Source of the DNA: a virus
Strand: one strand, 5' to 3'
Virus record (IMG/VR): IMGVR_UViG_3300020474_000108
Span: 1-24,076 of that record
Length of the DNA stretch: 24,076 nt
Part shown: piece after piece, positions 1,139 through 24,061 of the stretch
How the letters are laid out: every line of letters begins with the position of its first letter
Position numbering within the stretch: the first letter of the stretch is position 1
Made by a program: the position numbers and the translations under genes
The notes under the pieces: model-generated
Told to the model about the DNA's origin: nothing
The model's input: the letters and a program-made list of their open reading frames with translations, nothing else
The model's database searches: none

Positions 1139-1316
1139 TTTTATTTTCTATAATTTTTTCTTTATATTCACAATGAGGACATACTATTTTTTTATTATAA
1201 TTTAAATCTTTCGTGTTATCTAAAGACAATAAATGGTAGTCGGAAATCGACCACCATTTATTACATTTACCACAATTAAAGTGGTATAAAATTTCTTTAC
1301 TAACTCTATGCTTCAT
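1131..1316 (-). CDS. Small zinc-ribbon protein
   Basis: A 61-residue protein with two CxxC knuckles, C15-GK-C18 and C46-PH-C49, spaced like a zinc ribbon, with an aromatic KWWSISDYH segment between them and a charged C-terminal tail. No catalytic domain fits in this length, so it most likely binds zinc and acts as an adaptor or nucleic-acid/protein-binding module. It overlaps the 3' end of nrdJ by 11 bases and the next gene by 8, indicating one co-translated unit. I cannot name a family beyond the zinc-ribbon fold. Confidence 0.65.
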   Translation of the reverse strand: MKHRVSKEILYHFNCGKCNKWWSISDYHLLSLDNTKDLNYNKKIVCPHCEYKEKIIENKNE

Positions 1317-3210
1317 CTAATGCTTTTTCTTTTTTTATACTATTCAAGTCCACATCTATTTCACAGGTACCACCAGCACATGCCAATTCACCAGTTAAAT
1401 TAGTGTTGTCGTCTAATTCAACAACTTTACTTAAATCAACGTCTTTTAAAGATTTCATCATTTCATTATATTGTTCTTTAGTAATATCTTCAAACGGTGC
1501 CTGAGTGTAAGTACCCCCATTATAAGGTAATACTGATAAACCATTATAAGCTTTTCTGTTTTCCCACATCCATTCACCAGCTTTATCCCACTCATCTTCT
1601 TTCAAAGATATGGTAGCAGATACGTTATGTGAGTTAGACCCATTTCTGTGTCCTGACCTTACCCACTCTATTGCAACTTTTTTAACCCTTTCTAATAAAT
1701 CAAAAGGTGACTCAGTTCTTAATATAGAACCTTCAGGAGCTTTTTGTGGTATACTAATTACCGCGGTATCGTGTGGTCTAAAGTATTCGTCTTCTACTAA
1801 TTCTGGGTGATTAGTTTTTAAGTATGTATAAATTGCTTCATTTTTACCAACCCTAACTCTTCTAATATAATAATCATTATGCCAAGCGTGAATACCTGAA
1901 GACGTTCCTAATGTTAATGATGTTGTTCCAGCTGGTTTAACAGTGGTACATCTTGCGGAAGGATTTATATCTATTAGTTTGGATACTCTGGTATTTTCTC
2001 TTTTAACTAAACTAGCAGATTTTTTCATATCATATTTTAAAACTTTACCCGAACCAATACCTGTCATTGACACACCTATAAGTGCATCCTTTTCAGTTGT
2101 TTCTTGCCAAATCTCTCTTAGATAGTGAAAAGAAGTATACCCCGCTTGTAGTGTTCCTATGAATGCTGCTGCTTTTACTCTTTCATTTAGGTCTTCTTGT
2201 GATTCAATATTTGATACGTTTACTTCACATAGGTTACAAAACTGGTTTGGCCTCAGTGCAATCTCACAACATGGATTAGTTCCCCAATCTTTATCATTAT
2301 TTAAATAAATTCCTGGTTCTCCCGCTCCCGATAATTCAACTCTTTTCCATAAATCCATAAAAAATTCTTTTGTAATTTTATGTCTCATTAAACAAGCTGA
2401 GTTATTAGCTCTTCCTCTTTGTGGGTTAAGTTCCCACCAATTACCTGATTTGCACCCAATCATAGCATCGTCATCAGCACTAAACAAACTAATAAGAGCT
2501 GCTCTACGAATTCCACCGGCAAGTACCGCATCTGCGATGTGACATACAATATCATGTACTTCAATAGTTGTAAGTTGTTCTCCATTTTCTTTTTGACTTA
2601 ATAATCCTTCTATTTTTACTAAACATTCTTTTAGTGGTTGTGGACCTGGAGCTTTTCCACCTGATGTGATTAATCTAGCTCCCTTTGGTCTAATATCAGA
2701 ATAATCGAATTCTACTCTACTACCACCACCATTCATATATGTTTTCATTAAAACTTTTATGGCGTCTGCCCATCCTTCAATTGAGTCGCCAATTAAGAAT
2801 CTTTTCTTTCTTTTCGGATATGGTTTTTGTATGCACGGTAATTTCGCTACGTGATGTTTTTGTACTGAATACCCTACTCCTGTACCACCTAATAATAAGA
2901 ACATAGTTTCACTGAAAGAATCTATGTGGTCAATTGGTACATAAGCGCAGTTATAAATTCTATTCGGTGATATCTCAATTGGTTTACCTCCAAACTGCAT
3001 CGACCTCATTGAGGGTAAAACTTTTTTATCGTATACCAATTTATATTTTTCCTCTATCTCATCTTTTAGATGTGGATATTTCTTAATATGCATATTTTTA
3101 TTTCGGGTAACTAATTCATCCCACGTTTCTCTTCTATTTAGTTCCGGTATGTACTTTGCGTACTTCATGTAGACAGTAATATCCGACAGAATCTTATTTG
3201 ATACTTCCAT
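1306..3210 (-). CDS. nrdJ: Adenosylcobalamin-dependent (class II) ribonucleotide reductase NrdJ
   Basis: This 634-residue enzyme should reduce ribonucleotides to deoxyribonucleotides using a radical generated from coenzyme B12, so it needs no partner radical subunit or iron centre. The catalytic set matches monomeric class II reductases: C88 (YNCAY) and C325 (FCNLCE) as the redox pair, C314 in NPCCEI as the thiyl radical residue and E316 two residues on as the base. C314 and C325 are 11 apart, as in the Lactobacillus enzyme (C408/C419). The PAGTTS phosphate loop is at 426-431, and the C-terminal shuttle pair C611/C616 lies in CAGGTC. It is about 100 residues shorter than the Lactobacillus enzyme (739) and shows no N-terminal ATP cone. 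No nrdA or nrdB is visible. Its start lies 13 bases after the helicase stop. Confidence 0.9.
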   Translation of the reverse strand: MEVSNKILSDITVYMKYAKYIPELNRRETWDELVTRNKNMHIKKYPHLKDEIEEKYKLVYDKKVLPSMRSMQFGGKPIEISPNRIYNCAYVPIDHIDSFSETMFLLLGGTGVGYSVQKHHVAKLPCIQKPYPKRKKRFLIGDSIEGWADAIKVLMKTYMNGGGSRVEFDYSDIRPKGARLITSGGKAPGPQPLKECLVKIEGLLSQKENGEQLTTIEVHDIVCHIADAVLAGGIRRAALISLFSADDDAMIGCKSGNWWELNPQRGRANNSACLMRHKITKEFFMDLWKRVELSGAGEPGIYLNNDKDWGTNPCCEIALRPNQFCNLCEVNVSNIESQEDLNERVKAAAFIGTLQAGYTSFHYLREIWQETTEKDALIGVSMTGIGSGKVLKYDMKKSASLVKRENTRVSKLIDINPSARCTTVKPAGTTSLTLGTSSGIHAWHNDYYIRRVRVGKNEAIYTYLKTNHPELVEDEYFRPHDTAVISIPQKAPEGSILRTESPFDLLERVKKVAIEWVRSGHRNGSNSHNVSATISLKEDEWDKAGEWMWENRKAYNGLSVLPYNGGTYTQAPFEDITKEQYNEMMKSLKDVDLSKVVELDDNTNLTGELACAGGTCEIDVDLNSIKKEKALDEA

Positions 3211-6109: not shown

Positions 6110-6544
6110 TTACTTTACTACTTCAACAAGTTCTATTTCAAACTTAAGTTCTTCACCAGCTAGTGGGTGATTTAAATCCACATTAATAGATTCTTCTAGA
6201 ACTTTAATTATTTGTCCTTGAATTGGTCTACCCATATTGTCTTGACCTTGTACGAATCCATTTTTTTCAAATTTAAAACCTTCTGGGAATTCTTTTTTTT
6301 CTACTGATACAACAGCTTCATCTATATAAGGACCATAAGCTTCTTCGGGTTTTAAATTTATTTCTACCTTATCACCCACATCCAATTTTTTTACAGCCTC
6401 ATTAAAACCTTTTAATAATTTACCATCATCTATAGCAAATTCTAATGGTTCTTTTCTATCTCTACTATTATCAAAAATATCACCATCTTTTAAAGTCCCT
6501 ACATAGTGTACTCTTACTTTATCACCTTCTTTTAATTTAGTCAT
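6110..6544 (-). CDS. slyD: FKBP-type peptidyl-prolyl isomerase, SlyD-like chaperone
   Basis: A 144-residue cytoplasmic prolyl isomerase that should catalyse cis-trans isomerisation of proline bonds and help proteins fold. It follows the SlyD plan: an FKBP core with VHYVGTLKDG and FDNS (12-27), GFNEAVKKLDVGDK (46-59), an insert-in-flap chaperone domain (about 70-122, containing EEAYGPYIDEAVVSV), then DLNHPLAGEELKFEIELVEV (123-142) closing the core. The His/Cys-rich metal tail of E. coli SlyD is absent. The ATG at 6544 overlaps the stop of uvsX, so it is co-translated with a recombinase. This is a host-type protein and was probably acquired from a bacterium. It may assist folding of phage proteins, but its client is unknown. 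Confidence 0.93.
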   Translation of the reverse strand: MTKLKEGDKVRVHYVGTLKDGDIFDNSRDRKEPLEFAIDDGKLLKGFNEAVKKLDVGDKVEINLKPEEAYGPYIDEAVVSVEKKEFPEGFKFEKNGFVQGQDNMGRPIQGQIIKVLEESINVDLNHPLAGEELKFEIELVEVVK

Positions 6545-9550: not shown

Positions 9551-12500
9551 TTATAGTCCCTCAAAAAACGGTAAAAAATTAGCTGGGTCTAAGATATGTT
9601 CTACCACTATTTTCTTAATTTCACCCCCTATTTCCTTTTCAACAACCACACCTCTTCTTATTTCAAAGTGTAAATGTATTCCTGATGACGGACCACTATT
9701 ACCTAGTATGCCTATTTCAATAGAGTTCCCAGCAAAACCAAATCTTCTATTATCTGGTATGTTATCCCCAGGATTAACTCTGACATCATCCCTTAAAAAT
9801 GCATGTATTGTTTTATAATATACTGTACCGCCTTCATCTGGAAGTTCATTATATTCTATAGTTTTTCCTCCTTCAGGGTCGTCTATATATTCGGCATTAA
9901 TTCTTAAATCAGTTATTTCTATAAAATTACCATATTTTCCACACCCATCTTCTGTGTCTTGTGGTTTACATCCATTTTTTACTTTTGTCACCACCCCTTT
10001 CATAGCCGTATATACTTTAATCCCTTCATTACTATTAGCTTTGTCTACCATATTACTTTTTACTATTAGGTCAACACCCAAATGTCTGTGTTCTTCTGCT
10101 AATATAGGTGGGGTTAAAGTATACTCTGGATTAATAACATCGGTGAATACTATATTATCATCTGCAATTTCTGGACTTTCTTTAGTTATTGGTGATAGGT
10201 ATCCATTACTAGTTGCACTTAATTGCATTTGTTGTGGTGTCGCATTTAATGAGTCATAAAACACGTCATCTGTTTGAGGTACAGCCTCCTCAGCTTTTTC
10301 AAATAAACTCTCATTTACTCTTTGTACTAAATCGGTAACCTTTGGTAATTGTGGAATAGGTACTCTAATACCATCAAAAGAAGTTTCTATATTATTTGGT
10401 GTTATATTATGTTCCACATTTACAATTAAATAAGGTCCTTTAAACATTGGTAAGTACCTAAGTTGGAAGTATTGTGTGGGTTGTATGGTTACATTACCCA
10501 TACAGGTAATTTTAGCTGTGTAGGACCTATTAGCGTAAACATTAAATAATGATGTTGAAGCCATGGAAGTTGCTCCTCCACCACCAGAGTCAGCCATTTC
10601 TTGTAATATCTTAAAACTTTCTGAAGTGTCTTGATATTGTGATTGGTCTAGGGTCACTGACTCAAAAATATTCTGATTAGGTAATCCGAAATCTACCGTA
10701 AAGCCCATAACTTTATTAGAAAGATTTTCGTCAAAACATTTCCCTTCCGATATTAATGGGTTTGGTGCTGCTTTATTAAGAGCAAAAGTGTCGTTTGAAA
10801 ATCCGTTATTGGTGGTTTTAATATCTAATTGTGTCGATGGTGGTCCAACGTATTGACATAGAAAAGCTGGACTTGATTGTAGATAATCTACGGTATTAAA
10901 TGTCCCGAACATTGCGTTTCCTTGTAGTTGTGCTGATTTTTCTGGTATATTAAAAAAGTTTATATAAGCTGGTAATGGTAGGAAATTAAAATAGTTATTA
11001 GCTAATATAGTACTAATGTAACTTGCCACACTTTGAGTTAGTGTTTTAGAGTTGGTTCCAGCAAATGGTGAATCTAATTGTATTATATCCCATATACTTA
11101 CTATTGCATCATTACCTATATCTCTATTAGCCCTATCAAAAAATAAAAACTTTTCAAATAGTGTTTCATTACTAGTAAAATCAATACCAGAAACCCACCT
11201 GTCATTTATAACTTTGAATTGGTTGTACAATTCTAACTTTAAATTATCACCTTCTATTTTTGTTCTATCGTCACTCTTTTTACTTTTATTTTTTTCGTCG
11301 TCAACCGCGTCTTGTGATGTTATAATTTTTTTTAGATTTTTTGTTAAATTATCAATATAATTACCCATATTTTCTTCTTGTGATGATAGGTCATTTAAAA
11401 ATATATTTAAGAATTGTTTTGCACTAATGGGTCCGTTTACGGCACAATAAGTCCCATAAAGTTTGATGAATGGTGCAAATGATTCTATGTTGGCACTATT
11501 AAATTCAATACCTGGTCCTGGTAAATTTATTGTTTGGAAGAATGAATAGTATGGATTTGTTATGTCATTTACTTGTAGTAATCCTGCTATACCGTAATCA
11601 ATACCATCCATACCACCAATTACATGGTGTCTCATGTCTACTAACACTTGTGGGTTACCAACGAAAGTATTACCCGCACTTGGAATTGTGACGGTACTAG
11701 ATGAGTAAAATCCGAAAGTTTGGTTTATTTGATGCCTATCAAAAGTTTGTAAAATATTTAATCTTTGTAGTAAGGTTGTATTTTGGTCTTCAAAATCTAA
11801 GTTTGTTGTCGACTTGTGTGCGTATTCTATGTCTAAGTTTAAAAAATTAGATATTTTTTCATTAAACTTAAGTAGTTGTGCTTCTGATAAGGCTTGAGAC
11901 AATTTACCTTCTGAAGATTCTACATTAGAGACCCTATCTACATATGTTGACTCAACAACTATAGTATCTTTTAGTATTGTTTTAAAACTACCACCAATAT
12001 CTACATTACCAACAGGTGAAGAAAACTCCAAAAACATACCTTCAAAGGTATCTAATTCTTGTTTAGTAAAAGTAGCTAGTAGGTAATTTATAGAAGCTGA
12101 ATCAATATTTTGGTTAAATGACCAGGCTTCTTGTTCTTCATTAAAAGAGTCTATTTTTTTAATGTGTTGGTTTGGTGTTTTTCTGTACCCTACATTATTT
12201 GTAAAAAATCCATAGTTAGAAAGACCCCACATAGTCCTTACAGCACCATTATGTAAATTATTATTACCGAATAAATTTTGGTAGTACTTTGCTGTGGTGT
12301 CTCTCAACCCACCTGAGGAAGGATATAGAATATAGTAGTTAGATTGTGATGAGTTATTAAAATCTACACCGTAGTTCGGGTTAGTTACATTTGTCCCCTC
12401 TAAATAGACATCATAGAACTTAATTTGTGTACCAACATTATCAGTTAATGACACTTCAGTATTATTTTCTATGCTTAAATTTACCCCCACAATATTTGAT

Positions 12501-15500
12501 TCGAACATAGGGTTAGGCATACCTCCGATGTATTGTAATATGTTTGAGTCTGTAGCTATATAATGAAACGCGTCTACTACCTTAGCATAAAGACCAACCG
12601 ACATAGAATTATTACCACCGTCTTGTGATATAAACTGATAGGGTTGACCGTCACTTGTATCGGTTACTTGGTAGTTATAAGTTATGTTTTGAGTTACAGG
12701 TTCGTATACATAAGCGGGTCCCGTAGCCCCTAGTATTCCACCAATTAAACCTAAATCATTACATACATTACCTAGTGGGTCACCAACATTTAGATTTTCA
12801 TGATTAGATGATGCTGTTTTATACCTCCACCAAACAGAACCCATTTTCAATAAAAAAGCTACGGGTACTCTATGTAAAGCAGGCATTTGATTAAATACTT
12901 CCGATATGTAGTCACCCCTCTTAGAATCATCTATAGAACTATTTTTTACTATGGTTAATTCTCTTAGTGTTGGGATTGGTAGAGAATTAAGAAATAGGTA
13001 TGCTGCGTTGGTGTATGGATTAGTTGTACCAGCTCTTTCGTTTTCCACACCTTGTATAACCGCATTTACAAAATATGGTGTATTTAACATAGATGTTATT
13101 TCTCTTTGTACCGTAGCGTCAAATATATTATTATCGAATGTCGCACTACTTACTGGTGGTAGACTAGTAGTACCTAAATTATAATGTAGTTCTCCTTCTG
13201 TTAGAAATAAGTCTTTAGGTTGTAGTGTGGATAAGTAGTCTTGGAAAAGTTCCATACTGCTGAATACATCTACATTACCTTTAGATTTTCTCAGTATTGC
13301 TTTTACAACATCTGTTTCATCCATGAAACAATACTTTTTAGACGTAAAGTATTTTATATTGAATTTGTCTGTTAGTACATTTGTGTTATTTGTATCGTAT
13401 ATTAAAGTGTTATGTATATCATAAAAATCACCTATAGGTCTAGTCATACCTGCCGCTATACCCATTTGACGAGTAAGATTCATCCTTAGTGGTTCCAAAT
13501 CAAAATTATTGGGTACTTTTTTAAGTCTTATAGCTTCTTCACACAAAGTAAATTGTTGGGGTAGTACTGAATATGGTAGTGGAGAATTTATTAATTCATA
13601 ACTAGATGTTATTAAGAACGGTGTTACCAAACCAAAAGTTCTATAAACCAAATATTTTTCGGGAGATTCTTTTTCTAAAATCTCTTGTATTGTACCCACA
13701 TCTAAATCAGAATTTTTAAAATACTCTTTTAATTTTTTATAGTCTTTTATTTGTTGATACAGATTATTTGCGTCGTACTCTGATAGTTCATTAATCGCTG
13801 ATGAAATTTCGTTTATATTAGAATATCTAGTACTTAAACTACCATATAATATGTTTTGTTGTGCCCTATCTAATATTTCAAACAATAAATCTGTTATTTC
13901 TAATATTCTATAAGGTGTGTTGGTGGGTGGCCAATCTTTTAAGCTTATTGGTGTGAAGTCTTTTATGACCCCCAAATTATCTGTTGGGAAACTAAAGTCT
14001 GTAAATTTATATGCCGCACTTTTAGTGTATTCTTCTACAAATTCAACTTCAGGCCAAACTTCTTCATTATCACCTTCAGTTATATCTACAACATCATCCG
14101 CCCCAATATAGGTTAATATAGAAGATGTAACACATTCATTTTCTTCTTGTACAGTATAATATTGTGGCCAAGGATATACCGTGTCAGCGTTTTCACTGTC
14201 GTTAGAGACTTTGGCCACACTTAGTCTTTTATGGTCATTTCTTTTTGCGAAAGCTTTAGTGTGTACCTCATCTAATAATCTTAAAAAAGTATCAGCACCT
14301 GCAATTATAACAGCAAAAACATTACGAATAGTTGGTCTAAAGCCTAATTCAGATTCTAATCTACTATTAAGTTTTGCTGTTATTTTGTCCGACATTTTTT
14401 TAGATTGTTTTTGGAAGAGTTGTTCCGCTTTTTTCCATTCACCACCAAAACTAAAAGGGTGTATATCAAATATTAACCAAGGTGCTAATGACGAACCAAA
14501 TTCTTCTTCTTTTTTTCTAATAGCTTCACCCCCATCTACTAATGAAATAGAACTACCCACTATTGACCTGTCGTAGATGTTGTAGTCCATACTGGATAAT
14601 ACGGTTGGTACAGGGTAATCTCCTGAAATACTATTAAACGATGGGTTATTTTGTAACTGAAACGCGTATTTATGTGATAATTGTTTTAGACTTTCTTGAG
14701 CTTCTGCAGTTACTAATTCTTTTTTCTGTCTAGCCGCTTCTAAATCTGAATTATCTATAACTGGTATCTCTTTTAGTGGGTACGCTAAAACAGTTCTAGT
14801 CCTACCTGTACTACCATCTAAACTTGCTGTTTTAACATTAACTTTACAAGCAAAATCTTTAGCTAGATTATTTTCCATCCAACCGTTTTTACCACTAACA
14901 GCGTCTTTATATTTTTTTAAGACATTTTTATAGTCTAATCTATCAGAGGTTTCACTTAAATCAGCCTGACCAAATAATTTTGCTAGGTCCCTATCTAAAC
15001 TTTTTACTTTTTCTATTAACTCTACAAGAGTATATTCTGGAAAACTTTTTTCTATAAGATTCTTTTTTTTGTATATCTCATATACTTCTGTCATTACTTC
15101 CCTCCCCTTTGTAGATGTAATTTTACTTCCAGTACTTCTATTAGGGTACATATAAGGAGCTGTTATAGCTTCATGCATGTTGATGTCTCTGAGTAAGGCA
15201 ATATGATTACCTTTAAAGTCACAAGATACTATATAATCACCACTACTAGGGTCAAATCTAGAGACAAATTTTTGGAGGGTTAGTTGGTATCGAACCGCTT
15301 TACCATAATAACCTTTAAGTGTTAAAAAAAATGTTGGGTATGGGAGATGAAAAAATGCTGTGTATGGAGTATTACCTCTTGCCTGTTCAAATAATGTTTT
15401 ACCACGAATATCGGTAAAGTTAATACTTACCTGTGGTATGTAGGAAGAGTTAATTTTAACACTAATAGAAGTTATACCAAACCCCTGAAAATCATTTCCT

Positions 15501-15841
15501 CCTTTTGATTTTGGTGAATTTCCTGTAGTAAATCCTGGTTCCGTGAAAGCATCTGTCCAATCACTATCAAATTTAGATTTACCTTCTGGTTTTAAAAAAT
15601 TAAGTTCACCGTCTGCAATATCTATTGTTATTTGGTCACCACTACCACCTCCAGCAATTATTTTACTTCTAGGTGTTATTTTTGCAGTTAGATTTGCATA
15701 CATCACCAAATCTTCAGCGTTAACCAACCTATCTTGGGTTTTACCGTTAATAACAACTTTGTTTGGGTCTATCACAACAACATTGTTACCTACCGCGTTT
15801 GTAAGTATGTCACCTGAATTTTTTAAAATATTATCTGCCAT
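9551..15841 (-). CDS. Giant baseplate hub protein with C-terminal M23 metallopeptidase (2096 aa)
   Basis: This 2096-residue protein appears to join a baseplate hub to a cell-wall-cutting enzyme. The N-terminal region (about 115-225: ITSISVKINSSYIPQVSINF, then FHLPYPTFFLTLKGYYG and YIVSCDFKG) and a late segment (about 1773-1834: AKITCMGNVTIQPTQYF, then MFKGPYLIVNVEHNI) look like the beta-rich parts of gp27-type hub proteins. The last about 185 residues are an M23 zinc endopeptidase with all expected ligands: H1920 and D1924 (HLGVD), H2013 (TIHAF) and H2056/H2058 (HLHFE). In T4, gp27 and the gp5 lysozyme share this job. The central about 1500 residues are unassigned, with a Lys/Asp-rich helical stretch near residue 1500. 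The gene overlaps the gp53-like gene by 11 bases. Hub assignment is inference from pattern and position; the peptidase is secure. Confidence 0.85.
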   Translation of the reverse strand: MADNILKNSGDILTNAVGNNVVVIDPNKVVINGKTQDRLVNAEDLVMYANLTAKITPRSKIIAGGGSGDQITIDIADGELNFLKPEGKSKFDSDWTDAFTEPGFTTGNSPKSKGGNDFQGFGITSISVKINSSYIPQVSINFTDIRGKTLFEQARGNTPYTAFFHLPYPTFFLTLKGYYGKAVRYQLTLQKFVSRFDPSSGDYIVSCDFKGNHIALLRDINMHEAITAPYMYPNRSTGSKITSTKGREVMTEVYEIYKKKNLIEKSFPEYTLVELIEKVKSLDRDLAKLFGQADLSETSDRLDYKNVLKKYKDAVSGKNGWMENNLAKDFACKVNVKTASLDGSTGRTRTVLAYPLKEIPVIDNSDLEAARQKKELVTAEAQESLKQLSHKYAFQLQNNPSFNSISGDYPVPTVLSSMDYNIYDRSIVGSSISLVDGGEAIRKKEEEFGSSLAPWLIFDIHPFSFGGEWKKAEQLFQKQSKKMSDKITAKLNSRLESELGFRPTIRNVFAVIIAGADTFLRLLDEVHTKAFAKRNDHKRLSVAKVSNDSENADTVYPWPQYYTVQEENECVTSSILTYIGADDVVDITEGDNEEVWPEVEFVEEYTKSAAYKFTDFSFPTDNLGVIKDFTPISLKDWPPTNTPYRILEITDLLFEILDRAQQNILYGSLSTRYSNINEISSAINELSEYDANNLYQQIKDYKKLKEYFKNSDLDVGTIQEILEKESPEKYLVYRTFGLVTPFLITSSYELINSPLPYSVLPQQFTLCEEAIRLKKVPNNFDLEPLRMNLTRQMGIAAGMTRPIGDFYDIHNTLIYDTNNTNVLTDKFNIKYFTSKKYCFMDETDVVKAILRKSKGNVDVFSSMELFQDYLSTLQPKDLFLTEGELHYNLGTTSLPPVSSATFDNNIFDATVQREITSMLNTPYFVNAVIQGVENERAGTTNPYTNAAYLFLNSLPIPTLRELTIVKNSSIDDSKRGDYISEVFNQMPALHRVPVAFLLKMGSVWWRYKTASSNHENLNVGDPLGNVCNDLGLIGGILGATGPAYVYEPVTQNITYNYQVTDTSDGQPYQFISQDGGNNSMSVGLYAKVVDAFHYIATDSNILQYIGGMPNPMFESNIVGVNLSIENNTEVSLTDNVGTQIKFYDVYLEGTNVTNPNYGVDFNNSSQSNYYILYPSSGGLRDTTAKYYQNLFGNNNLHNGAVRTMWGLSNYGFFTNNVGYRKTPNQHIKKIDSFNEEQEAWSFNQNIDSASINYLLATFTKQELDTFEGMFLEFSSPVGNVDIGGSFKTILKDTIVVESTYVDRVSNVESSEGKLSQALSEAQLLKFNEKISNFLNLDIEYAHKSTTNLDFEDQNTTLLQRLNILQTFDRHQINQTFGFYSSSTVTIPSAGNTFVGNPQVLVDMRHHVIGGMDGIDYGIAGLLQVNDITNPYYSFFQTINLPGPGIEFNSANIESFAPFIKLYGTYCAVNGPISAKQFLNIFLNDLSSQEENMGNYIDNLTKNLKKIITSQDAVDDEKNKSKKSDDRTKIEGDNLKLELYNQFKVINDRWVSGIDFTSNETLFEKFLFFDRANRDIGNDAIVSIWDIIQLDSPFAGTNSKTLTQSVASYISTILANNYFNFLPLPAYINFFNIPEKSAQLQGNAMFGTFNTVDYLQSSPAFLCQYVGPPSTQLDIKTTNNGFSNDTFALNKAAPNPLISEGKCFDENLSNKVMGFTVDFGLPNQNIFESVTLDQSQYQDTSESFKILQEMADSGGGGATSMASTSLFNVYANRSYTAKITCMGNVTIQPTQYFQLRYLPMFKGPYLIVNVEHNITPNNIETSFDGIRVPIPQLPKVTDLVQRVNESLFEKAEEAVPQTDDVFYDSLNATPQQMQLSATSNGYLSPITKESPEIADDNIVFTDVINPEYTLTPPILAEEHRHLGVDLIVKSNMVDKANSNEGIKVYTAMKGVVTKVKNGCKPQDTEDGCGKYGNFIEITDLRINAEYIDDPEGGKTIEYNELPDEGGTVYYKTIHAFLRDDVRVNPGDNIPDNRRFGFAGNSIEIGILGNSGPSSGIHLHFEIRRGVVVEKEIGGEIKKIVVEHILDPANFLPFFEGL

Positions 15842-20284: not shown

Positions 20285-22411
20285 TTACGCGTTAGACGCG
20301 TTAACTATAACCTGACTTAATGCTTGAGCTGACCCTGTATTCTGAGTTAATCTAGTTATAAATCTATTAATATCTACCTCTGTGGTCTCACTACCACCCT
20401 CTAATTTAATAGTACCTTCAATTAAAACTTTACCACTTTGTCCACTTGCCGGACCTTGATTACCCAGTACATTTTCTATGTTTGTAGTTCTATTATTTAT
20501 CGCTTGTGTTTCCCCCATTAGGTTTGTCCCACCTATAATTAAATCATCCTTATTAAATTTTATTGGTTCTTCACCTGGTCTTAGTATAAAGTCTTGTACA
20601 GGAATACCTATCTTACCAAACCCATCTTTAATAACTTGTGACATAGGTTCGGTTGCTCTTGCGGCTATTTCTTCTAGTATTGCTTTTTTATCTGCAGCTG
20701 AAACATTTGCGTCTAGTAATTTTTCTTTTTCTGCTGCAGTAGGACCCATGTCATCAGGCATCGATTCTGCAATCATCTGTGATATAGTTTGTACATCTGC
20801 ATTACCTAATGCTGTTTGTCCACCCGCAAGTCTTAGTTGTTCCCTAATAGCTGATTCTATACCAGCTAGGTATTGATTTGTTTTCTCTGATACTGTTAGT
20901 TGTTGGTCATAGAAGGCCTCATCTGTCATGTTTGCAGATGTTAATTCTGCTATCATATCTGGTGTTAAATCCTCAACATCCATCATTTTATCTATACTAG
21001 GTATCTTAACTTGTGCTACACCACCTTTACCTATCGTAGCTAGAGACGCGATTAGGTCTTTAGATTCTTCTGGTATATCAGTACCAAACTGGTCAAATAC
21101 CTGTGCTCTTCTCGCTGATTGAATAGCAGTGTCAGCTAACTCTTGGTACGACATACCCATTTGTTCAGCCATAGCCTTTAACTGTCGTCTCTGGTCTGGA
21201 GATATAGAGAACTTTCCTTTCTCTTCATCAAAATGTACAGCTGCGGCGGCGGTATCAGCAATTGCATCCTGTAAACCTTCTAGGTCGTTAGTAGCCATAT
21301 ACATTAACTTAAATGGGTCAGCTAAATCACCTACAGCACCCCCGATTACTTGCATATTTGCTGCAAAATCAATCGCCCCTTCTGGGTCAAAGAATTTATC
21401 AGCCAAACTTGTTACTTTACCCATTTCCAACCCAAGGATTTGTCCCTTTGCTGCCATTCTAGATAAACCTTCAATTCCACGGTCAAATCCGTATGTATTC
21501 ACTAGTTTTAGTTGGTCACTAGCGGTACCTATGTAAGCTTCCATAACCACCCCAAACTCTCTACCGGTTTCTAGTATTTCCGACATCGCACTATCAGTGT
21601 TGTTAACTTCACCCATAGCATCTTGTAGGTTCATACCTATACTATCAAAAGCTGCTCCAAACTTACCAGCATCAAAACCTTTTAGTGTTTTAGTCAATAA
21701 ACTAGCTCTTTCTAATGTATCTTGTGGAATTCTCATATTCCTACCAACCTCAGTGGTGATACTCATGAAAGTTTCAAGAACTGCGTTTGCTCTTATTCCA
21801 AACTGAGAGGTAGCGTCGGCAGCAGCATTAATATCTTCAATCATATCTACCTGTTGAGCGTTGGTTACACCTAAGGTTTTGGATATATCTAATCTTAATG
21901 TATCTTCTAACGCAAGTAAGGAAGTTATTTTATCTATATTATTCGCAACATCTATGGTACCACTTCTCATTTGACCAATCATGTTTAACATTTCTTCCAT
22001 GTCTGCTACTGATAAGTCAGAAGCTGGTACTTTATCTTCGGAAAGTGTTTTTAATGTTCTAGCTAGTTCTTTAAGTGGTCCCGTACCGGTAATCTCCTTA
22101 TCTTTCCTTTTACCTAATACATCAGCTATGGCTTTTTCTATCCTTCTTTCTATCTCGTCCTCTTGTTGTGGTGTGAATGTTACGAATGAAGGTAATGGAT
22201 TTTCTACCCCTAATTTTTCTGCTATTTTTCTAGAGAGTGGGTTTCCTTCTTTACCTAATTTACCAATAGATTTTTTTCTGTCCTGATAGGTTGGTTCGTC
22301 TTTAATGTTAAAGACCCCTAAAGGAACACCTAATTCTGGGTGAGACGCAAGGTAAGACCTAGAACCTGATAATATTCTTTCTATTAAAAGTTGTATTCTA
22401 AAATTTAACAT
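20285..22411 (-). CDS. Tail tape-measure protein (708 aa)
   Basis: A 708-residue, Ala/Met/Leu-rich, mainly helical protein with long charged helices and no enzyme motif. It sits directly after the tail assembly chaperone pair, the usual place of a tape measure, which sets tail length and is threaded into the tube. Near its C-terminus DFILRPGEEPIKFNKDDLII (607-626) matches the conserved RPG...F.KDDL.IG ending of many tape-measure proteins, followed by a Gly/Gln linker and a helical tail. At about 0.15 nm per residue it predicts a tail near 105 nm, close to T4 (gp29 has 590 residues). No clear membrane segment is seen. The ATG at 22411 has no Shine-Dalgarno; a TATTTATA element lies 14 bases upstream. 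Confidence 0.85.
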   Translation of the reverse strand: MLNFRIQLLIERILSGSRSYLASHPELGVPLGVFNIKDEPTYQDRKKSIGKLGKEGNPLSRKIAEKLGVENPLPSFVTFTPQQEDEIERRIEKAIADVLGKRKDKEITGTGPLKELARTLKTLSEDKVPASDLSVADMEEMLNMIGQMRSGTIDVANNIDKITSLLALEDTLRLDISKTLGVTNAQQVDMIEDINAAADATSQFGIRANAVLETFMSITTEVGRNMRIPQDTLERASLLTKTLKGFDAGKFGAAFDSIGMNLQDAMGEVNNTDSAMSEILETGREFGVVMEAYIGTASDQLKLVNTYGFDRGIEGLSRMAAKGQILGLEMGKVTSLADKFFDPEGAIDFAANMQVIGGAVGDLADPFKLMYMATNDLEGLQDAIADTAAAAVHFDEEKGKFSISPDQRRQLKAMAEQMGMSYQELADTAIQSARRAQVFDQFGTDIPEESKDLIASLATIGKGGVAQVKIPSIDKMMDVEDLTPDMIAELTSANMTDEAFYDQQLTVSEKTNQYLAGIESAIREQLRLAGGQTALGNADVQTISQMIAESMPDDMGPTAAEKEKLLDANVSAADKKAILEEIAARATEPMSQVIKDGFGKIGIPVQDFILRPGEEPIKFNKDDLIIGGTNLMGETQAINNRTTNIENVLGNQGPASGQSGKVLIEGTIKLEGGSETTEVDINRFITRLTQNTGSAQALSQVIVNASNA

Positions 22412-22434: not shown

Positions 22435-22647
22435 TTAGAATCTGTTTTTACTTTTGTTATTAGCTTGCTCAATTGCTTCATTTTTCTTATTAAATTCTTC
22501 TATTAAAGAATTTACATAAAATCGTCTTTCGAAGGTTGGCATTTGTAATAAATCGGAATAAGATAGGTGTAAATGACGCATTAAGTGGTAAAACTCTTTC
22601 AAGAGGGCATTCCTATATGCCGTAGAAAGGACGAAAAAACTCAACAC
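22435..22647 (-). CDS. Second frame of the tail assembly chaperone (T-like), likely reached by frameshift
   Basis: The open frame of 70 codons (GTG at 22647, no Shine-Dalgarno) overlaps the end of the gp26-like gene by 35 bases in the +1 frame and ends just before the tape-measure gene. The sequence after the overlap (HLMRHLHLSYSDLL, then MPTFERRFYVNSLIEEFNKK) resembles the second-frame domains of tail assembly chaperones, which normally exist only as a frameshift extension (the lambda G/GT arrangement). If the ribosome shifts at 22639-22633, the product is a 311-residue fusion made of residues 1-246 of the first protein plus 65 from this frame. An independent start at GTG, or at the inner ATG (codon 23), cannot be excluded. 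Confidence 0.6.
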   Translation of the reverse strand: MLSFFVLSTAYRNALLKEFYHLMRHLHLSYSDLLQMPTFERRFYVNSLIEEFNKKNEAIEQANNKSKNRF

Positions 22648-23371
22648 CCAATGAAATTTTTACATTCATTTCTTCTCCTGATGGTGTTGTTGTTGGTATA
22701 TTAAGGTCTAGTGATGGTGTGTTATCTCGGATAACTTTCCTGATTTCTTGTGCGTCTCTAATAGGCATTGTTTGTATGAACTGAGCTATAGTCATTCTGT
22801 CCCTAACACCGTCAATTTCTTTAACCATCATTTCTAATTGTTTAGTCATATAAGGTGTTTGTGGGTCATTTTTGTATTGAGCGTCAATTTCTGTTAGTTT
22901 TTGTTCGTCTTGTGGGGAAATAAAAGATAATTTAGCTTTCTTATTAGATTTTTCTAACATGAATTCAAATTCCATATTTGTATCTAATTTCACACCTATA
23001 TCCTTAGTCCTTAAAACAGATAAATCTAATTTTGTTCTAAATGGTTCTTTAGTTTTTTTATCCACCAACTCAACTTCGTACTCACTACCAAAAGCGGTAT
23101 TTCTTAAAAAGATTAATATAGCTTCCTTGTCACAAGCCGGTAATTGAATGGCTGTGATATCTTTATCTAAAACCTTTCTATCTATTAAAGAGTCAACTAA
23201 CTTACCCGTACTTAAAAGTGCTTGGGAAGATAATAGATTTTCATCTGAAGCGTTTAGATACGTTACCTTTACTGTTTTTTTACCGTTGGTAAATATTCCT
23301 TGTGATGGTAGGGTAACCACATCATAAGGTAGTAATGTATCGTTATTTGGCTGTAAATTATCTTGTAGCAT
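22613..23371 (-). CDS. gp26: gp26-like baseplate hub / tail assembly chaperone protein (252 aa)
   Basis: A 252-residue protein starting MLQDNLQPNNDTLLPYDVVT and continuing LPSQGIFTNG, KVTYLNASDENLLSS and LPACDKEAILIFLRNTAFG (to about residue 113), a pattern that fits the T4 gp26 baseplate family (T4_baseplate). The later helical half (about 150-225) contains a charged coiled segment. The gene lies between tail tube and tape measure and overlaps a second frame, the position of a tail assembly chaperone that binds the tape measure during tube assembly. Both readings may be true: gp26-type proteins may be chaperones rather than virion parts. The ATG at 23371 follows an AT-rich leader without Shine-Dalgarno. 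Confidence 0.75.
   Translation of the reverse strand: MLQDNLQPNNDTLLPYDVVTLPSQGIFTNGKKTVKVTYLNASDENLLSSQALLSTGKLVDSLIDRKVLDKDITAIQLPACDKEAILIFLRNTAFGSEYEVELVDKKTKEPFRTKLDLSVLRTKDIGVKLDTNMEFEFMLEKSNKKAKLSFISPQDEQKLTEIDAQYKNDPQTPYMTKQLEMMVKEIDGVRDRMTIAQFIQTMPIRDAQEIRKVIRDNTPSLDLNIPTTTPSGEEMNVKISLGVEFFRPFYGI
22633..22642 (-). promoter_or_regulatory. Candidate programmed ribosomal frameshift site
   Basis: In the zero frame the chaperone gene reads GAG TTT TTT CGT (codons 244-247). The downstream frame needs a +1 (or -2) shift. A Phe-tRNA on the second TTT can move one base forward onto TTC, which pairs better with its GAA anticodon, before the next codon CGT is read. Seven codons of overlap lie beyond. 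I did not find an obvious stimulatory hairpin by eye. Confidence 0.45.
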
Positions 23372-23572: not shown

Positions 23573-24061
23573 TTAGTAAACTAGTATACATCTGTCTGGT
23601 CGCAACGTGGCTGAAATTGTTGCTAAACCGTCATCACTATAACCTAAACTATCGAAGTTAACATCAGTTAAGAAAGTACCTTGCATAATCCATTTTTCTA
23701 CAACTACCCCAGTAGGGTCTAGTAATTCTAAGTCTATATTTTTCTTATATCCTGCAGCGTAACCCATTCTACCTGTTACTGATTCTGCGTGTAATCTAAC
23801 CCACTCCATAAGTGCTTGTGCCGCAGATGGACCAATCGGGTCTCTAAATGTTACATTAATTGTATTCCACGTAAACCTACCAGCTACATAAGTAGAGGTG
23901 TTAAGGAATGGTACCTCTACAGAGTTAATAGTAACCTGTGGTCTAGAAGTACTTTCTACATACCATTCATTAATCCCCAAAGAAGAGTCAAATCTTAAAA
24001 TAAACCTATTCTTTTTCTTTGGTTCATAAGGTATAGGCATTTTCATTAATAAGTCAGCCAT
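23573..24061 (-). CDS. gp19: Tail tube protein, T4 gp19-like
   Basis: A 162-residue protein with the compact beta-barrel sequence pattern of T4 gp19-type tail tubes: NRFILRFDSSLGINEWYVES (18-37), SRPQVTINSVEVPFLN (39-54), then WNTINVTFRDP (65-75), the helix SAAQALMEWVRLHAES (79-94), and a C-terminal strand pair with WIMQGTFLTDVNFDSLGYSDDG (124-145). It stacks in hexamer rings around the tape measure to form the DNA channel. T4 gp19 is 163 residues, almost the same. ATG at 24061 follows AAAAATTAAAAAGAT, an A-rich leader. Its own strong terminator follows. The sheath gene would be expected just outside the right edge. Confidence 0.93.
   Translation of the reverse strand: MADLLMKMPIPYEPKKKNRFILRFDSSLGINEWYVESTSRPQVTINSVEVPFLNTSTYVAGRFTWNTINVTFRDPIGPSAAQALMEWVRLHAESVTGRMGYAAGYKKNIDLELLDPTGVVVEKWIMQGTFLTDVNFDSLGYSDDGLATISATLRPDRCILVY

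Follow-up and report, generated by a model that had tools for sequence, protein, structure and literature searches.

The locus described here raises the question of how a short reading frame that overlaps the end of a gp26-like gene would be translated. The window, by which we mean the whole stretch of DNA that was analysed (24,076 nucleotides), comes from an uncultured virus (IMG/VR record IMGVR_UViG_3300020474_000108), of which it is a 24-kb fragment, and carries T4-type genes for the gp25 baseplate wedge, a gp32-like protein, a 5′-3′ exonuclease and a gp19-type tail tube. On its minus strand the tail tube gene is followed by the gp26-like gene, the short second frame and a gene of 708 codons (Table 1). 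A sequence-only reading of this layout had proposed a programmed frameshift of the +1 or –2 kind in tail assembly chaperone genes. The evidence assembled below, all of it drawn from sequences and models, makes it highly probable that two tail assembly chaperones would be produced from one gene by means of a +1 programmed frameshift.

Table 1. Features of the chaperone locus, in window coordinates
Feature	Position	Strand	Basis
Tail tube gene (gp19-type), upstream neighbour	23573..24061	minus	phrog_4542 tail tube, E 1.9e-31
gp26-like gene, short chaperone form (TAC-N), 252 aa	22613..23371	minus	PF12322, phrog_150, AlphaFold model
Codons GGT GTT GAG just 5′ of the site (GAG = 22642-22640)	22640..22648	minus	possible stimulator segment
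Slippery Phe-Phe codons TTT TTT	22634..22639	minus	invariant in 124 loci, 23/23 clusters
P-site TTT and +1 slip to TTC	22636-22634 (TTT), 22635-22633 (TTC)	minus	inferred
A-site Arg codon CGT, rare-codon class (CGN)	22631..22633	minus	CGN in 23/23 clusters
Stop codon TAG of the unshifted product, after CGT and five further codons	22613..22615	minus	ORF reading
Second (+1) frame, gp51-type C-terminal domain (TAC-C), long form 311 aa	22435..22633	minus	phrog_634, gp51 profile, selection
Presumed tape-measure gene, 708 aa, ATG at 22411	20285..22411	minus	position only

Several other genes of the window are of note in their own right. A B12-dependent type ribonucleotide reductase is encoded at 1306-3210 (PF02867, PF21995), an FKBP-type peptidyl-prolyl isomerase at 6110-6544 (PF00254, E 3e-21), and a 2096-aa protein lying amid the tail genes at 9551-15841, with a C-terminal stretch resembling peptidase M23 (phrog_3578, E 5e-5; PF01551, E 0.0095). 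Moreover, a Shine-Dalgarno-like sequence is absent upstream of 15 of the 17 window genes and DUF5522 is encoded at 932-1138, a combination that would presumably fit a Bacteroidota host.

The gp26-like protein was recognized by the PF12322 profile (E 1.2e-7; 32.1 bits against a curated cut-off of 24.5) and by phrog_150, annotated as baseplate hub (E 1.4e-10). The AlphaFold model of the 252-aa short form had a confident fold (pLDDT 85.7) and matched the predicted gp26-type structures of many phages, with a best E of 5.8e-24 and an E of 8.3e-14 for the hub of SP-15. Sequence search of the PDB gave no significant match, and neither did the fold search of the PDB with the short-form model, in which the HK97 tail assembly chaperone 2ob9 (gp13) was reached at E 5.6 and TM 0.47 by target. 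The 708-aa product gave no family match in profile searches against phrog and Pfam and a weak match (E 0.14) to the annotated tape-measure protein of Flavobacterium phage immuto, in which the annotated tape-measure gene is also the next long gene, in the same place.

The second frame is open at an offset of +1/–2 from GTG 22647 to TAA 22437-22435, and its stop is separated by 23 bases from the ATG of the next gene, which confirmed the arrangement first described, namely a frame overlapping the gp26-like gene and ending just before the gene in the tape-measure position. The domain-like appearance that had been attributed to its translation was borne out by matches to phrog_634 (baseplate hub assembly catalyst, gp51 family; E 2.3e-4) and to cyanophage gp51; DUF6760 was matched below the cut-off (E 0.0045). 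In the hhalign comparisons, the second-frame domain of the window group matched cyanophage gp51 with E 6.4e-7, and cyanophage gp51 in turn matched T4 gp51 with E 4.7e-5. When the profile of the second-frame domain was compared with T4 gp51 directly, the match was not significant (E 0.16), and the homology to T4 gp51 therefore rests on the cyanophage link. As judged from the related sequences, purifying selection acts on the second frame past the gp26 stop, where its pN/pS was 0.21 against 1.89 for the control frame, a rough figure taken over many overlapping pairs.

At the overlap, the gp26-like frame of the window reads GTT GAG TTT TTT CGT CCT TTC TAC GGC ATA TAG, and its product ends in V-E-F-F-R-P-F-Y-G-I-stop; when one base is skipped past the second TTT, the second frame continues as GTC CTT TCT ACG GCA TAT AGG. 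The fusion of 311 residues that had been predicted proved exact on computation for a +1 slip on the second TTT. In order to compare this site among relatives, IMG/VR was searched with the pattern GARTTYTTYMGNCCNTTYTAYGG, in which each Phe codon may be TTT or TTC (TTY TTY) and the next codon CGN or AGN (MGN). Matches to this pattern together with homology matches gave 124 metagenomic loci, whose complete copies, the window included, formed 23 clusters at 70% protein identity and 67 at 90%, and 150,959 codons from the same contigs served as the codon background. These clusters are related by descent, and binomial figures computed on them overstate the case.

Although the pattern left the codons free, the gp26-type ORF ends reading TTTTTTCGN (TTT TTT CGN) in 124/124 loci. 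The gp51-type domain lies in the +1/–2 frame at every one of these loci with enough contig, as the sequence-only reading had stated for the window in preference to –1; the –1 frame closes at most 41 codons from the site and holds no domain. TTT accounts for 75% of the Phe codons of the same contigs, yet it is invariant at the slip site. Similarly, the A-site codon is CGN in 23/23 clusters against 11% of the Arg codons in the background, and CGC occupies it in 29 of the 67 clusters formed at 90% identity against 0.3% of the Arg codons elsewhere. Other in-frame TTTTTT pairs in long ORFs of these contigs were followed by CGN, as in TTTTTTCGN, in 0/40 cases. As a control, the 18 matches to the same pattern in bacterial genomes were unrelated sequence with TTT, TTC, CGN and AGN mixed, and none of the 18 lay in a gp26-type gene. 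The proposed slip of the Phe-tRNA from TTT to TTC at TTT TTT CGT is supported by the relatives and by their invariant site.

Upstream of the site, synonymous positions are G-rich in the relatives (GGG GTN GAG), of which the window itself keeps only GAG. GGG was found in 18/23 clusters (background 8%), GTG in 11/23 (9%) and GAG in 16/23 (18%), and this segment is a possible stimulator resembling a Shine-Dalgarno sequence. Downstream, no conserved RNA structure was detected 3′ of the site (mean z –0.27 over the 23 clusters). Avoidance of in-frame TTT-C upstream of the site within the gene was also considered and set aside, the difference being too small (10/205 against 7.7% elsewhere).

Taken alone, the window is compatible with both +1 and –2. 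The same fusion, lengthened by an extra Phe to 312 residues, would result if the P-site tRNA slipped two bases back on TTTTTT: the frame offset is identical, the T6 run permits such re-pairing, and –2 slippage is used in phage Mu (PMC5009743). The distant relatives bear on this choice. The layout is common to the cultured phages Flavobacterium immuto, Microcystis Mel-JY01, Streptococcus GXN1 and Bacillus SP-15, at homologous codons, and the replicative helicase of the window shares 28-31% identity with those of immuto, Mel-JY01 and the 484-kb phage LR756508, many other phages matching too. The site reads GAA TTC TTT CGT CCC in GXN1 and AAC TTT CTA TTC in LR756508, both with the domain at the same offset as in the window. 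After a –2 slip the Phe-tRNA would land on TCT in GXN1 (TTC TTT CGT) and on ACT in LR756508 (TTT CTA TTC); only a +1 movement from UUU to UUC re-pairs well in these two phages, which argues for +1 over –2 or homopolymer slippage. In addition, a rare sense codon in the A site is typical of +1 sites, which counts against the –2 slip, and we regard that explanation as improbable. The +1 direction, beside which the sequence-only reading had kept –2 possible, is thus supported via the relatives with TTCTTTCGT and TTTCTATTC.

The +1 offset of the domain was likewise found in the relatives of immuto (80 loci), whose sites are mostly TTT CTT TGG, TTT TTT TGG or TTT CTA TGG. For immuto itself, the junction expected is GVSFFGLTPEYR if the slip occurs at TTT and GVSFLGLTPEYR if it occurs at CTT. 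LIS04, with TTT TTT AGT (TTT to TTA) and a second-frame ATG upstream, may use a different mechanism.

The second frame could otherwise be a separate gene that is read from a weak start of its own (GTG 22647, TTG 22644 or an internal ATG), perhaps through translational coupling, the T run being kept for coding reasons. In fact, the second frame of the window contains GTG 22647 and TTG 22644 a short way 5′ of the site, TTG or GTG is found there in most relatives, and an ATG lies at the gp26 stop in some T4-like phages, namely ValKK3 (L319, TAATG), Atu_ph07 (L150, ATGA) and S-PM2. However, the start codon of the second frame is at no fixed place among the relatives, and ATG, GTG and TTG are all absent before the domain motif in 12/120 loci. 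In 21/120 loci a second-frame stop immediately precedes the shift codon, and no upstream start is therefore usable there. Furthermore, the second frame has invariant residues ahead of every possible start. In 23/23 clusters the first frame has TTC for its third Phe (background 25%) because TTT would alter an invariant Ser of the second frame, and this constraint implies that second-frame translation begins no more than about 12 bases away from the slip codon. Coding alone would also leave unexplained the invariant first TTT and the synonymous G-enrichment upstream. These observations make a separate gene very improbable, and by sequence comparison initiation of the second frame would depend on the first frame. 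The earlier claim that the second frame had only a GTG start, lacking a ribosome site, is the weaker detail: the missing ribosome site says little and was dropped as evidence because 15/17 window genes have none, although the GTG is not conserved among relatives. Comparison of relatives, which had been named in advance as a check, yielded an invariant slippery run and no conserved second-frame start.

As for slippage of the RNA polymerase on T6, which would give transcripts minus one U from which the fusion is read normally, a homopolymer run is present at the site, but six bases are short for this process, the run is never longer among the 124 loci and GXN1 (TTCTTTC), LR756508 (TTTCTATTC) and immuto (TTTCTTTGG) lack a run of this kind, so that its probability is close to nil.

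The same domain is found in the –1 frame in another set of phages, including cyanophages (80 loci), Vibrio ValKK3, Sinorhizobium phiN3, Cronobacter S13, Aeromonas avDM12, Pseudomonas Paride and others, in which this frame stays open across a site of the T TTT TTC kind, located at the homologous Phe-Phe codons. No conservation was seen for the annotated gp51 ATG of S-PM2, and a start codon ahead of the core motif is missing from 11 of 45 distinct cyanophage loci. ValKK3 and some similar –1 phages may simply reinitiate. A –1 slippery site together with an ATG overlapping the gp26 stop (TAATG or ATGA) was observed in the 595-kb phage LR756511 (L129), Atu_ph07 and ValKK3, in which both routes, a frameshift and reinitiation, may operate side by side.

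T4 encodes gp26 and gp51 in two distinct genes with divergent transcription; each protein is a complete PF12322 member, and gp51 bears the extra C-terminal domain as well. In-frame versions were also encountered. One genome of the Bacteroidota search (L342:1384-2091) joins PF12322 and a DUF6760/gp51-like domain in one continuous ORF, and a second (L340:1378-2106) has the same in-frame fusion, its C-terminal domain being called by eye only. The proposed shift is backed also by the absence of a conserved RNA fold 3′ of the site, by the in-frame fusion of L342 and by the gp26/gp51 architecture of T4. Apart from these, six cyanobacterial genomes (L328, L329, L330, L331, L334 and L338) carry an ORF of about 125 aa ending in G GGG GAR (e.g. 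TTG GGG GAA TTC TAG), which DUF6760 (PF20546) overlaps in the –1 frame, mostly without an ATG before the domain. In these cyanobacteria a chaperone, perhaps one belonging to a contractile injection system, may be extended by DUF6760 through a –1 frameshift.

Under the +1 frameshift, most ribosomes would end at the gp26-like stop and release the short form of 252 aa. In a minority of cases, while the second TTT is occupied by peptidyl-tRNA-Phe and the A site holds a CGN Arg codon that is decoded slowly, the tRNA-Phe would move forward by one base and re-pair with TTC. The shifted ribosomes would then read the second frame and append the gp51-type domain, giving the long form of 311 aa. By analogy to lambda G and GT, the short form would coat the tape-measure protein and the added domain would recruit the tail tube protein. 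The sequences themselves establish the two frames, the invariant site, a constraint acting on each frame and the lack of a conserved second-frame start. We infer these jobs of the two proteins, as well as the slip itself, its frequency, its direction in the window phage and the contributions of the rare codon and the G-rich segment. A broader proposal has about an even chance of being right, namely that UUU-UUU-CGN represents a new +1 class, its rate set by the rare Arg codon and the G-rich segment in phages otherwise devoid of Shine-Dalgarno starts, that the same Phe-Phe codons were switched between +1 and –1 within one chaperone family, and that T4 swapped the shift for gene duplication.

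Read as a +1 frameshift, the locus extends the scheme of short and long chaperones to a sizeable set of uncultured T4-type phages as well as to cultured phages whose downstream piece is hypothetical or unannotated. Across these phages the shift would have changed direction against a constant background of homologous proteins and slip codons, a natural series that makes the rules of +1 against –1 shifting directly testable. Moreover, the site is strongly conserved and can serve as an annotation marker, and gp26-type genes ending in EFF, SFF or NFF are worth checking for an overlapping frame.

The short and long T4-type chaperones, and the two paralogous genes that replace the shift in T4, are already known and published; the suggestion that a T4-type gp26 protein accompanied by such a second frame acts as a G/GT-like chaperone was right, though it had been anticipated in this way. 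T4-like tail assembly chaperones gp26 and gp51 are reportedly the subject of the article by Vladimirov, Gautam and Davidson in Virology 566:9-15 (2022). As far as its content is relayed in PMC10885494 and PMC12846349, Vladimirov et al. 2022 described T4-like genes that yield tail assembly chaperones in both short and long versions, with a non-frameshift mechanism in some of them according to PMC10885494. Tail chaperone shifts of –1, –2 and +1 exist, T4 being the exception (Atkins et al. review, PMC5009743), and a 2025 paper reported –1 polyT sites in other phages and referred to such signals in T4-like phages (PMC12846349). Sullivan et al. (2010) noted that cyanophage gp51 corresponds to only the C-terminal part of T4 gp51 (PMC3037559). 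Within the open-licence literature, Vladimirov 2022 itself aside, novelty appears to lie in the +1 class with UUU-CGN and in the reversal of the shift direction. Most long-tailed phages use a backward shift, and the window would represent a forward variant.

Compared with known systems, the window resembles T4 gp26/gp51 in its protein families, a short form of the gp26 type and a predicted long form that carries the C-terminal domain of gp51, but T4 has two gene copies, whereas the window would instead obtain the long form through the +1 offset. The gp26-gp51 pair of cyanophages (S-PM2 type, Kyanoviridae) shares with the window the homologous Phe-Phe site, the same C-terminal domain and, often, the lack of a start codon; in cyanophages, however, the domain is in the –1 frame with a canonical T TTT TTC heptamer, in contrast to the +1/–2 offset of the window. 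In lambda G/GT, too, a pair of overlapping frames lies between the genes for the tail tube and the tape measure, the latter assigned in the window by position only, and the long form is made by ribosomal shift. Unlike what is proposed for the window, lambda shifts by –1 at G GGA AAG, and the likeness is drawn from layout and not from protein sequence. Finally, prfB offers a parallel for the slip itself, with a P-site tRNA that moves +1 on a U-rich codon, a slow A site and an upstream Shine-Dalgarno-like stretch (PMC5009743); prfB has a stop codon in the A site and CUU as slip codon, whereas the window has a rare sense CGN in the A site and UUU as the predicted slip codon.
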